64,000 nt of DNA, from NCBI GenBank assembly GCA_014695175.1, contig JACJNV010000105.1:1-64000 (forward strand), written 5' to 3'. Source of the DNA: Microcoleus sp. FACHB-DQ6. GTDB taxonomy: Bacteria > Cyanobacteriota > Cyanobacteriia > Cyanobacteriales > Microcoleaceae. How positions within the stretch are numbered: the first letter of the stretch is position 1; every line of letters starts with the position of its first letter. A program made the position numbers and the translations under genes. The notes under the pieces are model-generated. The model saw only the letters and a list, made by a program, of their open reading frames with translations. It ran no database searches and was not told the origin of the DNA. Of the stretch, positions 43,704 through 49,612 are shown piece by piece.

Positions 43704-46700
43704 TCAATGCAAACCCTGACAAATAAACCCCGACCAATAACTCAAATCATCAAAAGGATTTGACAGAGTGTAAATATTTTCTTTCAAACTTTCATATCCT
43801 TTCTTCTGTTTCTGAATCTGATTCTCCCGCTTCGTTATTTTCTTCAAGTCCGCCCCCAACTTATTAAACTCATCCGTCTCCTTGTCGTAGGATTTCTGCC
43901 GCAATTTTAACTCTTGTTTTTCCTTTTGCACCGCAGCCAATTTTGAATTTAAATCCCCAATAATTCTCTGAAGCAACGGATCGATTTGCGGGTGATAAAG
44001 CTCTTTCAACTCCGCCCCCGAAATTTTCCGCAACCTCACCTGTGCCCGTCGCAAAGCCTCTGGACGACTCAAAGCTTCCCGACGATACTGATAGTAAAAA
44101 ATCGAAAACAGCGAAGTAGCAAAATCATCCACCGCCCACAAAGTGCTGACCACACTCCGAGCTCCCGCACACAAAAAACCCGTTCCCAAACTAAGAAGAT
44201 TATCGGTAATTTCCGTTCCTCCTAAATTAGTTTCGCAGCAGGACATAAACACATCGGATAACTGCGGCAAGCGCCAACCAGGTGTCATCAATTCCCCTAA
44301 CGTGATACTCCCGTCTCCTAAAAACAATCGCGATTCTAAAGGATTGTCCAAACGCGAGACAGCGTGGTGGCTGGAGTGGATTACATTCACACTTTGGGCG
44401 AGGTTTCGATAGGCTGCGACTGTTGCTTCTTGACTTCCTTTTAAGCGCTCAGGTTGGGTCACAATTTCGGCAATTTGTTCGCACTCAAAACGAGTGAAGT
44501 ACAAGTCATCCGTAGCATTTTCCACAATCCCGTATTTGGGCGATTCGATGGTTGGGCGTTGATTGCAATACTCCAAGATTCGGCAACTGGGCACGTAACG
44601 AATTAGGAATTTGTGACCAAGGAACACCCTTCGTAGGGGCGGTGCCCCCGTGCCCGCCCTCGGTTGAGGGGGTTCTATCGGCAATGCCGCCAGCGGAATC
44701 TGATGCAAAAACAGATGCGGAATCACAATCAATTCCTCAATCCCATCCAAACAATTACCAATCAACTCATCGACTTTCAACCGCTGCGACAACTGAGATA
44801 AAAACTCACCCATCCCCTGTTGCCAAATTTTCCTATCCTGCAAGTAAGGCGACAACCAACTCTCAAAAATCCACTTCTGCAAATTTCCCAAACCCTCTCC
44901 CTGACAAGTGTGAATCTGCGGCGCTTTATCCTTGTAAATCACAAAAACATGAGTGTCATCAGTCGTGGTATAAAAACAGAGAATCGCCGTCTGCGAATTG
45001 TCAATTAACTGCTGCATCGCCGCAAACTGCATCGGATCGACTTGAACTTGTCCCGCTAAAACAGGATCTAAACTGCGAATATTTTCCCAGATTTCCTGTT
45101 TCTCCCTTTCCAATTCTTGAATCTTCTCCGTGTAAGCAGACAAATTTGCCCGACTGCGCGACTGACTCCCCACATCGGCTAATTCTTTATTGCCTTCAGA
45201 AGGTTTGCGGAGTTGTTCAACTTCTGCGTCAATTTCCTGCTGCTTCGCCTCAAATTCCTGCAAATATTTTTGCACTGCGGGCGGAATTTTGCCGCTAGCA
45301 TACAAATCATTGCTGTGCATTAAATCGACTAACCGCTGAGCACGGGTTCTGTCACAATATTCTATGGCTTTTTCCAGTTGGTTGCTGTTGACGCAAGCTT
45401 GAATTGCCTTTTCGTAAACATCGATCGATTCTGCTAAAATCTGCTGGCGGATATCGTCGGAAGTTGCCCAACTTCTGCTTTTTTCCACCGCTTGAATTGC
45501 TTTCTCGAATCCTTCAAGGGCGATGTCCCAAAAACCAGCAGTGAAAGCGGTATTGCCGAGGTTTCTACCTGATTGCAAGCAGTTTAAAGGGAAAGCAGTA
45601 GGAGTGCGAATTTCTAATGCTAAGCGAAAACAGGCGATCGCCTCTTCTATATTCGCCGCCCTGACTCCTTCTATTCTGTTACTATAAGCACCTCCCAAAT
45701 TGTTTTGAGTCGTTGCCCAATATTCGGGATAATTCTCATGGGTATAGACTTTTAAAGCCTCGCGATAACAGGCGATCGCCTCTTCAATATTCCCCGCCCT
45801 GACTCCTTCTATTCTGTTACTATAGGCAGGCCCCAAATTGTTTTGAGTCGCTGCCCACTTTTCGGGATAATTCTCGCGGGTATAGACTTTTAAAGCTTCC
45901 AGATAACAGGCGATCGCCTCTTCAATATTCCCCGCCCTGACTCCTTCTATTCTGCCTTGATAGGCATTCCCCAAACCATTTTGAGTCGCTGCCCACTTTT
46001 CGGGATAAGCCTCGCGGGTATAGACTTTTAAAGCTTCCCGATAACAGGCGATCGCCTCTTCTATATTCTTTGCCCTGACTCCTTCTATTCTGTCACTATA
46101 GGCAGCCCCCAAATTGTTTTGAGTCATTGCCCAATTTTCGGGATAAGCCTCGCGGGTACTGACTTTTAAAGATTCCCGCAAACAAGCGATCGCCTCTTCT
46201 ATATTCTTTGCCCTGACTCCTTCTATTCTGTCACTATAGGCAGCCCCCAAATTGTTTTGAGTCATTGCCCAATTTTCGGGATAAGCCTCGCGGGTACTGA
46301 CTTTTAAAGCTTCTCGAAAACAGGCGATCGCCTCTTCTATATTCGCCGCCCTGATTCCTTCTATTCTGTTTCTATAGGCAGCCCCCAAATTGTTTTGAGT
46401 CATTGCCCAATTTTCGGGATAAGCCTCGCGGGTACTGACTTTTAAAGCTTCCCGAAAACAGGCGATCGCCTCTTCTATATTCGTCGCCCTGACTCCTTCT
46501 ATTCTGTCCCTATAGGCATTGCCCAAATTGTTTTGAACCGTTGCCCATTGTTCGGGATAATTCTCGCGGGTACGGACTTTTAAAGCTTCCCGAAAACAGG
46601 CGATCGCCTCTTCTATATTCGCCGCCCTGGCTCCTTCTATTCTGTCACCATAGGCAGCCCCCAAATTGTTTTGAGTCATTGCCCAATATTCGGGATAATC

Positions 46701-47381
46701 CTCGCGGGTACTGACTTTTAAAGCTTCTCTAAAACAGGCGATCGCCTCTTCTATATTCGTCGCCCTGACTCCTTCTATTCTGTCCCTATAGGCATTGCCC
46801 AAATTGTTTTGAACCGTTGCCCATTGTTCGGGATAATCCTCGCGGATATAGACTTCTGATGCTGCGCTATAACAAGCAATGCCTATTTCTAAATTCCCTG
46901 CCCGCCACCCCAGAGGAAACTGATTAATTAAGTTGCCAAAATTGACAATAACTCCTGCGATGGGTGCAGCGTCTTCTGAGGTAATTTCTGTGAATTTTGA
47001 TGTTGCCCAAACTTGTAAAATTTGAGCAAATTTTAAATCCAATTTGTCTAGATTTTGCTGTAAAATACGATATACGACTTGAGGAACTCCGCCACTGTCT
47101 GACGTTGCTTGCAACACCTCTATCAAGAAAGAAAAATACTCTTCAGGAGTTGCTGTACTGCTGACATAATTTGCCAAATGTGCCACTAGATTTTGCAACC
47201 AAGCTGCTGCATTTGAGTTGCCCTCTGCTGCCATATTAGCCGCTACCGCTTCCATGACTTGCACAAAATTGACATCAACTAACTCTAGATTGGCGTTGAG
47301 AATATTATCCTCTTCACCGCTAGGGCACTCAAGCAGGGCTTGAATCAGTTGGATATAGGCGGCGATGCGTTGTTCGTCCAT
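43704..47381 (-). CDS. TPR-CHAT caspase-like protease
   Basis: 1225 residues. Residues 1-185 are helical. Nine tandem 46-residue TPR-type units (about 188-601, core NIEEAIACFREALKV) follow, then a less regular TPR (YEKAIQACVNSNQLEKAIEY), a coiled-coil (ELEREKQEIWENIRSLDP), and the CHAT peptidase. The catalytic pair is visible: His near 1005 (IHSSHHAVSRLDNP) and Cys near 1048 (FMSCCETNLGG), with GTGFLCAGARSVVSTLWAVD after it. CHAT proteases are caspase relatives triggered through their repeats. It is the third gene of a minus-strand series after the sigma-like factor and DUF1822 genes, separated by a 319-base spacer. Substrate unknown. Confidence 0.92.
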   Translation of the reverse strand: MDEQRIAAYIQLIQALLECPSGEEDNILNANLELVDVNFVQVMEAVAANMAAEGNSNAAAWLQNLVAHLANYVSSTATPEEYFSFLIEVLQATSDSGGVPQVVYRILQQNLDKLDLKFAQILQVWATSKFTEITSEDAAPIAGVIVNFGNLINQFPLGWRAGNLEIGIACYSAASEVYIREDYPEQWATVQNNLGNAYRDRIEGVRATNIEEAIACFREALKVSTREDYPEYWAMTQNNLGAAYGDRIEGARAANIEEAIACFREALKVRTRENYPEQWATVQNNLGNAYRDRIEGVRATNIEEAIACFREALKVSTREAYPENWAMTQNNLGAAYRNRIEGIRAANIEEAIACFREALKVSTREAYPENWAMTQNNLGAAYSDRIEGVRAKNIEEAIACLRESLKVSTREAYPENWAMTQNNLGAAYSDRIEGVRAKNIEEAIACYREALKVYTREAYPEKWAATQNGLGNAYQGRIEGVRAGNIEEAIACYLEALKVYTRENYPEKWAATQNNLGPAYSNRIEGVRAGNIEEAIACYREALKVYTHENYPEYWATTQNNLGGAYSNRIEGVRAANIEEAIACFRLALEIRTPTAFPLNCLQSGRNLGNTAFTAGFWDIALEGFEKAIQAVEKSRSWATSDDIRQQILAESIDVYEKAIQACVNSNQLEKAIEYCDRTRAQRLVDLMHSNDLYASGKIPPAVQKYLQEFEAKQQEIDAEVEQLRKPSEGNKELADVGSQSRSRANLSAYTEKIQELEREKQEIWENIRSLDPVLAGQVQVDPMQFAAMQQLIDNSQTAILCFYTTTDDTHVFVIYKDKAPQIHTCQGEGLGNLQKWIFESWLSPYLQDRKIWQQGMGEFLSQLSQRLKVDELIGNCLDGIEELIVIPHLFLHQIPLAALPIEPPQPRAGTGAPPLRRVFLGHKFLIRYVPSCRILEYCNQRPTIESPKYGIVENATDDLYFTRFECEQIAEIVTQPERLKGSQEATVAAYRNLAQSVNVIHSSHHAVSRLDNPLESRLFLGDGSITLGELMTPGWRLPQLSDVFMSCCETNLGGTEITDNLLSLGTGFLCAGARSVVSTLWAVDDFATSLFSIFYYQYRREALSRPEALRRAQVRLRKISGAELKELYHPQIDPLLQRIIGDLNSKLAAVQKEKQELKLRQKSYDKETDEFNKLGADLKKITKRENQIQKQKKGYESLKENIYTLSNPFDDLSYWSGFICQGLH
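45579..46820 (-). repeat. Nine 138-bp coding repeats of the TPR array
   Basis: Nine units of 138 bp encode 46-residue repeats; many neighbours are almost identical, e.g. shared CAGGCGATCGCCTCTTCTAT with a HIP1 site in each unit. This points to recent amplification or gene conversion. Confidence 0.9.
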
Positions 47382-47700
47382 TGGAGTTTCCCTTTATTCT
47401 GTATATATATCGATCGGAAATTTGGGGATAATTATGCAAATTCCTGAAAAATTCTAGATATTTGTCTTTGGAATGTTGTAGGGGCAGATTCACCAACCAT
47501 AATCGCCAAAAACAAACCATCTCGAAAACCCGCCCCCACCCCATGCAAACAACCCAAAAACGCAATATTTTAATTGTTTTTTCGTATTGATGGCGGGGAT
47601 GAGGCAGGTTTTTTAGATGGTTGATTTTTATCAGATATGGTTAGTGAACCCGCCCCTACAAGTCATGGAAATTTATCCAGATTTCTGGGAGATTGCCGAT
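47382..47700. other. Spacer between DUF1822 and CHAT genes, repeat-like
   Basis: About 320 bases with no gene. It contains GGGGCAGATTCAC...AAAACCCGCCCC (about 47480-47537), akin to the inverted-repeat element at 56263-56317, and GAACCCGCCCCTACA near 47646. It may carry a separate promoter for the CHAT gene, but I see no clear boxes. Confidence 0.45.
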
Positions 47701-48564
47701 TTATGACAAGGCCAAATCATCACCATCTCCCCAAATTTCAGCCAACTTTTCCAACAAATCTTCAGCAATCAGATTCAGTTCCGCTTTCACATCCTCCTCA
47801 ATATTTGAAGCTTTCTCCACAGGTGAAGATTTATCACGATAGAAAGATATATCTCTCTTTCCCAAACCTCCACTGCTAGAACCACTTCCCGCTAAAGCCT
47901 TCCCTCCTTCATATCCCCAGTCAGATTTCTCACTACTGTGCAAAACTTTATTCAAAATTGCCACTATTTCAGAAATAGATTTGTTTTGCAATTTTTCCCG
48001 AACTTGTGCTTGTACCGGGTCATTTTCTTCCAAATCAGATAGCAACTCTTCAATTTCATTTTGCACTAGCGGAATTGCCAACTCAATCCGATCCAAATAC
48101 TCCCACAATTCCTCAACTGGTTTGAGATTAGTTAGAGAAATCTCTTCTGTTTCATCCATAATTTCCACAGCCGGAATAAAGCCCAAAAGTTTCACCTTAT
48201 CGAAAGGTTCGGCAAACTGAACGACGATATATGCAATGCGATTTTCCCGCACTTCCGGCAGAAAAATCGCCGATTCTCCGAGCTGAACCGGACAGCATTC
48301 TATCTTGCCAATTCCCGGCAAAACCAAATCGCCCACATCCACAACCGCCCGCATTGCTGGATTCCAACTATCACCGCCATCAATATCGGTTTCCATTTCC
48401 ATCCATTCCAAGAAATAGTTAACCGCCCAAACCGCCAGGGTATTGAAATAAACCCGCTTGCCTTTTTGCGGATTAGCTTGCTCTGAAGCAAATTGCAGAG
48501 CCAAATTGCGGGCAGTTTGCTCCAGAGGAATTTCTAACAAATAAGTATCTATGCTATTCACCAT
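47701..48564 (-). CDS. DUF1822 family protein
   Basis: 287 residues. IDTYLLEIPLEQTARNLALQ, FNTLAVWAVNYFLEWME, ESAIFLPEVRENRIAYIVVQ and VKLLGFIPAVE are the DUF1822 pattern, a cyanobacterial family of unknown activity usually encoded beside sigma-like factors and CHAT or caspase genes. The C-terminal third (GYEGGKALAGSGSSSGGLGK) is low-complexity linker plus an acidic helix. Its ATG overlaps the stop of the sigma-like gene by one base (TAATG), so translation is coupled. No membrane segment. Confidence 0.85.
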   Translation of the reverse strand: MVNSIDTYLLEIPLEQTARNLALQFASEQANPQKGKRVYFNTLAVWAVNYFLEWMEMETDIDGGDSWNPAMRAVVDVGDLVLPGIGKIECCPVQLGESAIFLPEVRENRIAYIVVQFAEPFDKVKLLGFIPAVEIMDETEEISLTNLKPVEELWEYLDRIELAIPLVQNEIEELLSDLEENDPVQAQVREKLQNKSISEIVAILNKVLHSSEKSDWGYEGGKALAGSGSSSGGLGKRDISFYRDKSSPVEKASNIEEDVKAELNLIAEDLLEKLAEIWGDGDDLALS

Positions 48565-49520
48565 TATTCCTCGGGTTGATATCCAAACTTAAGTGCAATC
48601 TCTTTGACGAGAGCCAAACCTGTTCTTTTCCAGTGAGAGTTGAGAGTTTGATAGTCAATGTTTAACTCTCTGGCAATTTTAGACAATTTATCTGGAGGGT
48701 CTTGCAACAGCAATCGCAGTGCGAGTACGTGAGAATTGGCATCCGGTCGAGGGCGGCGATTTTCGGGATTATTTGGCTTCTTCTTATCTATTTTTTCATT
48801 AGGATAACTGTTTCGCAGTTCTGCCGTCGGATCGTCTTCAATACACTGCCATAGTTGGCGGCCGATGCGCTGCTTATTTTGAGCTTGTTCTCTCTCGATG
48901 AGTTGCTCAATTCCATTTTTCGTGGTATGGTCTATCGGTTCTTGAGCCTCAAATTTTTCACCTCGCTTGCTCGTAATCTGAGCATCAAAACTAACACTAA
49001 AAATCTGTTGCTGCATCCGGCGATATTGCTCATAGACTTTGTTCTTGAGAGTTTTATTGAACCGCTGAACCACTCGGGTTCGCAACACATCAGCAGCGAG
49101 ATTGTCGAGGTCAATTCCCCTCAAAAATGCCGAAAGCGTTTTGAGAAAACCGCAATAAGCTTCCTGCATCATTTCCTCTAAATCAATATTAGGATAAGGA
49201 TGCTTGCGAATTCCGGGCAAATGGGGAATGAGTTGGCACAATTGATTTTTGAGTCTTTCTTGTTCCTTACTACTCTCTTGCGAGTCTTTCAAGAGTTGTA
49301 GAAGTTGGCGTAACTGTTCGTCGGTGTTCACAGGCACGTTCGGATGACATCGAGATAATTCGATTATCCCAGGGAAAATAGCGCTGTAACGTGCGAGCAA
49401 TAACAAAGTCAAGGAAATCGGTTTGAGTTCCCAACCCGTGGGTGGAAGCAACAAGTTGAAACTTGCCCCTACAGGAACTAAACCTGCTAAGGGTTCGACG
49501 GGGGTATAATGTCTCGTCAT
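48564..49520 (-). CDS. Divergent sigma-70-like factor
   Basis: 318 residues as drawn. Residues about 110-205 look like sigma region 2 (IDLEEMMQEAYCGFLKTLSA, RFNKTLKNKVYEQYRRMQQQ). The C-terminus has a region-4-like HTH (LSKIARELNIDYQTLNSHWK). It should direct RNA polymerase to its own promoter set, perhaps including this operon (inference). The start is doubtful: the first 55 residues lack an SD and include an intergenic-type palindrome (CAAGTTGAAACTTG, 49452-49465). GTG codons at about residues 63 and 65 are alternatives. First gene of the sigma-DUF1822-CHAT series. Confidence 0.75.
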   Translation of the reverse strand: MTRHYTPVEPLAGLVPVGASFNLLLPPTGWELKPISLTLLLLARYSAIFPGIIELSRCHPNVPVNTDEQLRQLLQLLKDSQESSKEQERLKNQLCQLIPHLPGIRKHPYPNIDLEEMMQEAYCGFLKTLSAFLRGIDLDNLAADVLRTRVVQRFNKTLKNKVYEQYRRMQQQIFSVSFDAQITSKRGEKFEAQEPIDHTTKNGIEQLIEREQAQNKQRIGRQLWQCIEDDPTAELRNSYPNEKIDKKKPNNPENRRPRPDANSHVLALRLLLQDPPDKLSKIARELNIDYQTLNSHWKRTGLALVKEIALKFGYQPEE

Positions 49521-49612
49521 AGTCCAGTTTTTGCGTGTTGATACTCTGATATCGCAGGTTTTGGTGGCTTTATGCAGAATTGAGCAAAAATTTTTCGTAA
49601 AGGCAATGCAAT

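Follow-up and report, generated by a model that had tools for sequence, protein, structure and literature searches.

A DUF1822 protein between a sigma factor and a TPR-CHAT protease in Microcoleus may be the cleaved inhibitor in a protease-controlled sigma switch

We have analyzed a 64,000-nucleotide window of the cyanobacterium Microcoleus sp. FACHB-DQ6 (contig JACJNV010000105.1, positions 1 to 64,000). Three open reading frames (ORFs) were confirmed on its minus strand, to which all window features below belong, in the order sigma-like gene (49520..48564 in its long form, 318 codons from ATG 49520), DUF1822 gene (47701..48564, 287 aa) and TPR-CHAT protease gene (43704..47381, 1225 aa). With moderate confidence, we propose that this unit is a protease-controlled sigma switch, in which the DUF1822 protein would be an anti-sigma factor that is cut by the CHAT protease, thereby freeing the sigma factor. 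The proposal rests on comparative sequence evidence, mainly on natural exchanges of gene segments and on the match between DUF1822 and its neighboring protease.

RESULTS

The locus was compared with two samples of relatives, namely 80 named-genome loci (79 with room upstream for a sigma call) and 41 class-wide loci holding the best-scoring DUF1822 genes. In the window, the two genes meet in TAATG, where the last base of the sigma stop (TAA) is also the first base of the DUF1822 start (ATG). A sigma gene was found directly upstream of DUF1822 in 72 of the 79 named-genome loci, with a 4-nt overlap in 37 of these 72, and in 39 of the 41 class-wide loci, a gene order well in excess of chance. This supported the translational coupling proposed in the first-pass annotation of this DNA, which had named non-conserved gene order in relatives as evidence against its module; the order was kept. 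A CHAT gene was usually next in the close family and often not in the wider one, where only 13/41 loci had it within 3.5 kb of DUF1822 and 28/41 were without it. Since the sigma gene is almost constant class-wide but CHAT is not, sigma and DUF1822 are probably the ancestral core pair, with the protease as an addition, and such a pair, mostly without CHAT, is what would be expected for an anti-sigma factor. The earlier view that the three genes travel together thus holds for their order, but is limited by the pairs without CHAT and by TPR-CHAT paralogues without DUF1822. The genome has 31 CHAT matches versus a single DUF1822, and its loci L273, L274 and L275 are of TPR-CHAT type with the same N-domain and no DUF1822 neighbor, some being truncated. 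Pairs of DUF1822 with a large conserved sigma (~400 aa), perhaps a named group 3 sigma, were observed in many cyanobacteria, mostly without a protease (L205:1735-4149 and the similar L198-L237).

Adjacency of the module genes recurred in many genera, at different chromosomal sites and on plasmids. Nostoc UHCC 0926 and Trichormus variabilis ATCC 29413 carry module copies on conjugative plasmids, and the unicellular Picosynechococcus PCC 7002 has one on pAQ6. Because of this last copy, the module is not confined to multicellular species; its predicted recurrence in filamentous cyanobacteria was observed. Within the genus, the module was seen in two or more distinct chromosomal settings, in line with mobility. 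In close relatives with intact sigma and DUF1822 genes, the TPR-CHAT gene was split by an inserted transposase-like ORF (L062, 6477-11217), absent (L063) or absent with an unrelated large gene in its place (L064, the same locus as L123). We count this persistence of the pair in favor of the proposed switch. Elsewhere, in L069, the sigma gene had decayed. The lack of CHAT in L063 and L064, as well as the 319-bp spacer before CHAT in the window (47382..47700, whereas most loci of the Nostoc type and of the 253-aa type have -18 to ~60 bp), would fit a chance or loose neighborhood of three genes with no common pathway. We consider this scarcely credible, as it is already contradicted by the adjacency that recurs across genera, chromosomal sites and plasmids.

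The window sigma protein had no relevant Pfam match, and its match to TIGR02937 (E 0.032, 13.9 bits) remained under the 42.9-bit cut-off. Larger DUF1822-linked sigmas matched TIGR02937 with E 2.5e-25 and 2.7e-28, with Sigma70_r4 above cut-off, and plasmid copies are named “sigma-70 family RNA polymerase sigma factor” in public records. In a profile-profile comparison, the window-type sigma resembled the clear extracytoplasmic function (ECF)-like sigmas (prob 88.6, E 2.7e-6), and based on this likeness we have taken it as a diverged ECF-like sigma factor. A search of the sigma and DUF1822 profiles against PDB sequences gave nothing useful. The initial sigma call can be kept, with a start that is likely different from ATG 49520. 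In relatives the protein starts at (M/V)DEQL, the equivalent of GTG 49331 in the window, and the recombination border described below falls there; hence, the coding region is probably 48564..49331, stop included. The remaining 63-codon extension (49332..49520) is more likely leader or promoter DNA, being ~85% identical in DNA between loci whose sigma bodies are ~25% identical in protein, and a codon-position test of it was ambiguous. Over 49332-49570, the ~240 bp located 5' of the sigma start stay ~85% identical across very different sigma alleles, indicating that the sigma gene moved without its promoter region. At another locus (L197:6709-7980), residues 20-162 of the sigma before DUF1822 resemble CHAT (PF12770 E 7.6e-11), so that its N-terminal part possibly makes it a CHAT-sigma fusion.

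Natural cassette swaps were found that run from the sigma start to DUF1822 residue ~80-88. The window locus shared ~85% of its DNA with L067, L068 and L077 just 5' of the sigma start, ~30-65% from 49319 to ~48300, and ~62-92% thereafter. Similarly, L121 and L124 shared 82-100% of the DNA in most upstream blocks, ~34-58% over the sigma gene plus the first ~60-80 DUF1822 codons, and then 92-100%, the protein identities being 23% for sigma, 52% for DUF1822-N and 97% for DUF1822-mid. The sigma and DUF1822-N alleles were always concordant and all four combinations with the DUF1822-mid alleles were found, which requires recombination. In the window, the module exchanged with the sigma gene corresponds to DUF1822 residues 1-88 (48301..48564). 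Because sigma and DUF1822-N swap as one unit, the first ~80 DUF1822 residues are predicted to be the part that probably binds the cognate sigma. Such a pattern would be expected if DUF1822-N recognizes the sigma and the remaining DUF1822 is matched to the protease. The distance correlation with sigma showed a modest preference for DUF1822-N (partial 0.59 vs 0.43 for DUF1822-mid) that is confounded by ancestry, and for this reason we have relied on the recombinants instead.

Everything in the sequences that points to sigma and DUF1822 as a cognate pair would fit equally well with a positive sigma partner, that is, a co-activator or stabilizer whose cleavage by CHAT turns the response off. Where the protease was lost and the pair kept, an active regulator would then remain. 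However, a partner that is coupled to a sigma in this gene order is usually an anti-sigma factor. Inhibition is also the effect reported for the nearest analogue that has been tested (PMC10028731), and we find a positive role quite unlikely. An anti-sigma role for DUF1822, suggested by the adjacency and by the cassette swap, is the reading that we prefer.

The C-terminal end of DUF1822 followed the protease type. EACC2 was approximated by a profile from the EACC2-CHAT proteins of relatives, and the type calls compare that profile with the window N-domain; the two marked mutually exclusive next genes. With a readable protease neighbor, tail-only DUF1822 proteins were followed by TPR-CHAT in 33/33 cases, and those ending in a beta module were followed by EACC2-CHAT in 33/33, a 33:0 / 0:33 split whose Fisher value (2.8e-19) ignores shared ancestry. 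The tail-only proteins end in a conserved LLEKLAEIWGD helix (residues 249-278 in the window, 47731..47820), which we propose as a protease-docking or displaced element, and some long forms with EACC2-CHAT carry both the tail and the beta module. Pfam detected CHAT after DUF1822 at 7/7 EACC2-type loci (L178, L157, L171, L163, L136, L185 and L189). The EACC2-type CHAT occurs by itself or joined to CHASE2, PBP-like, STAND or TPR-RelA parts, and an eighth locus, L176, is of TPR-CHAT type with the gene broken off at the contig end. At L136 (9345-15317), a single frame standing directly after sigma and DUF1822 contains EACC2-CHAT, a STAND-like ATPase, TPR and a RelA/SpoT set (RelA_SpoT, TGS, AH/RIS and ACT), a fusion that possibly links the sigma switch to guanosine tetraphosphate (ppGpp).

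The match between the C-terminal end and the protease type fits docking as well as cleavage. DUF1822 could thus bind both sigma and protease as a delivery adaptor or protease inhibitor, the main substrate being the sigma or another cell protein in a death or defense response. CHAT domains are caspase-like and have often been associated with cell death, which would agree with such a role, as would the CHAT-like stretch of the L197 sigma ORF. Yet, most class-wide DUF1822-sigma pairs are without CHAT, which argues that DUF1822 is not mainly a protease partner, and the persistence of TPR-CHAT paralogues without DUF1822 in the genome argues that it is not a required immunity protein. Taken together, we judge this adaptor role unlikely, and retain the anti-sigma protein cut by CHAT as the favored interpretation.

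PF08852 matched residues 12-198 of the window DUF1822 (E 1.3e-40, 140 bits, cut-off 25), covering model positions 1-197/370 only. The AlphaFold2 model (predicted local distance difference test [pLDDT] 86, predicted template modeling score [pTM] 0.82) comprised a folded part (residues 10-225), a disordered linker (residues 228-248, 47821..47883, pLDDT <50) and a confident helix (residues 249-278), and no membrane segment was seen in the protein. The linker varies in length and sequence, with an Arg followed by Glu, Asp or Asn recurring after a Gly-rich stretch (GGLGKRD in the window; FTRES, GATRE and GSDRE in others). An Arg was present in the linker of every tail-type protein that could be anchored by script, plus L132 by eye. 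We regard the recurrent context of the Arg as no more than moderate evidence for a cleavage site, with K236-R237-D238 as the candidate in the window. The first-pass suggestion that DUF1822 is a substrate or gatekeeper therefore has indirect sequence backing, from the cassette swap, the C-terminal match and the linker Arg.

A Foldseek search of the DUF1822 model against the PDB returned nothing below E 0.38. With VIA-align, residues ~10-160 matched mostly PD-(D/E)XK nucleases (SPARDA, Z 8.8; Hjc, Z 7.7; NhoI, Z 7.4), at Z values near the level typical of unrelated models, and no Csx30 or anti-sigma chain was among the rows. These matches, and the invariance of N41, D79 and E89 in 55 close-family members, would be compatible with DUF1822 being an effector, with a PD-(D/E)XK-fold N-domain that CHAT would set free to act on DNA as a nuclease or binding protein. 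Against this, besides the low Z values and the Foldseek result, the PD-(D/E)XK Lys is replaced by Cys in the window and by Arg in relatives. Moreover, D79 is Arg in core DUF1822 and comparison with the YraN profile gave a prob of 1.3, results on which the PD-(D/E)XK homology was rejected. An effector role appears very unlikely to us.

The window protease matched PF12770 (CHAT) with E 2e-32 and 113 bits (cut-off 24) over residues 875-1223 (43713..44759). Csx29 chains were its only solved-structure sequence matches below E 1e-3. His1006 (44364..44366) and Cys1049 (44235..44237) aligned with the catalytic dyad of the solved Csx29, and the dyad was invariant in 32/32 aligned family sequences covering it, in agreement with the intact His/Cys site reported before. 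The N-terminal helical domain (46857..47381) is common to five other places in the same genome. It is followed by the TPR array (45625..46855), the proposed sensor, which consists of 8.9 near-identical copies of a 138-bp (46-aa) unit (90% matches) and represents a recently expanded repeat. Near-identity of the units indicates that the array changes quickly, suggestive of what is often seen in sensors under selection. PADLOC defense models gave weak matches only, for the protease, and a C14 profile built from six own-genome seeds had no match in the neighborhoods. The flanking ORFs read as nucleotide kinase (Gmk-like), XseA/XseB-like and PHP-domain genes, and an Rfam search of the region gave no match.

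DISCUSSION

In the switch that we propose, sigma and DUF1822 would be made together by coupled translation of their overlapping genes, and the N-terminal ~80 residues of DUF1822 would hold the cognate sigma inactive. The C-terminal element of DUF1822 would contact the protease to which it is matched, as a helix for TPR-CHAT and as a beta module for EACC2-CHAT. A trigger sensed by the TPR array would lead the CHAT His/Cys site to cut DUF1822, the likeliest place being close to R237 in its disordered linker. The cut would either destabilize DUF1822 or strip its C-terminal helix, leaving the sigma free to transcribe the response genes.

Several points weigh against this proposal. Binding of DUF1822 to sigma and its cleavage are predictions. 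Neither the 33:33 split nor the Arg pattern is corrected for shared ancestry, and the swaps may correspond to few events. A lone Arg in a 26-residue linker is unsurprising, only the Gly-rich context and the next acidic residue being recurrent. Modeling of sigma and DUF1822 as a single chain with AlphaFold2 (TGA read-through, L176) gave a pTM of 0.47 from a shallow alignment and no interface support. Among NCBIfam models and PDB chains, no relationship by sequence could be detected between DUF1822 and either Csx30 or a known anti-sigma factor. Finally, L064 keeps the pair without the protease, so that a permanently locked-off sigma would need to be tolerated.

DUF1822 is without assigned function despite being present in 246/390 sampled genomes of the class, and we have found no literature on sll0688 or on CHAT with a sigma factor in cyanobacteria. 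If the proposal is true, many uncharacterized cyanobacterial sigmas would gain a regulator and many CHAT proteases a substrate, and a craspase-like route from protease to transcription would operate outside CRISPR. The pAQ6 copy of Picosynechococcus PCC 7002 offers a tractable plasmid-borne example, which makes the question directly testable.

COMPARISON WITH KNOWN SYSTEMS

RseA, which is cut by DegS, and RsiW are anti-sigma factors under regulated proteolysis. The mechanism proposed here has the same logic, with a protease that would cut an inhibitor and free a sigma. The proteins are, however, unrelated, the protease here having a caspase fold and DUF1822 lacking any visible membrane segment.

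ECF sigma and DUF1822 genes have been described next to EACC2-caspase genes with variable sensor domains, in a study that describes DUF1822 as a TPR protein, suggests activation by autopeptidase action and, in the section consulted, makes no proposal of a cut anti-sigma factor (Kaur et al. 2021, eLife, PMC8195603). The window shares with these neighborhoods the ECF-like sigma, the DUF1822 and a caspase-like protease, and several of our relatives (CHAT with CHASE2, STAND or PBP-like parts) appear to be the neighborhoods of that study. In contrast, the window protease has another N-domain and a 46-aa TPR array in place of EACC2, and the DUF1822 beside it has no beta module at the C-terminal end. 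Thus, the association of sigma, DUF1822 and EACC2-caspase was already known. Within the literature that we found, the TPR-CHAT version with its own DUF1822 C-terminal end, the swap evidence for an N-module predicted to bind sigma and the explicit proposal that an anti-sigma factor is cut are new.

In type III-E CRISPR, Csx29 cuts Csx30, the inhibitor of CASP-sigma (Strecker et al. 2022, PMC10028731). Both systems combine a TPR-CHAT protease with an ECF-like sigma and a protein that links the two, its N-part tied to the sigma and its cut or flexible part towards the C-terminal end, and the CHAT dyad of the window aligns with that of Csx29. On the other hand, a built-in TPR sensor would take the place of the RNA-guided effector. 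No Cas7-11, CRISPR RNA or CRISPR array was seen near the locus, the TPR array being the sole regular array in 39-56 kb. The window protease scored 69.9 bits against NF041237 (Csx29), whose cut-off of 300 was not reached, and neither a Csx30 model nor a Csx30 chain was matched by the DUF1822 sequence. Based on the lack of an array and on the Csx29 cut-off, the unit is not a type III-E member, but by analogy it may work like its protease arm. Tentatively, we further suggest a large, modular and partly plasmid-borne cyanobacterial family of CRISPR-independent, protease-released sigma switches, an idea that we find plausible without yet considering it probable. Its sigma and DUF1822-N would be constant, its C-terminal adaptors exchangeable and matched to CHAT sensor proteases (TPR, CHASE2, STAND or solute-binding), and Csx29-Csx30-CASP-sigma would be one special case.

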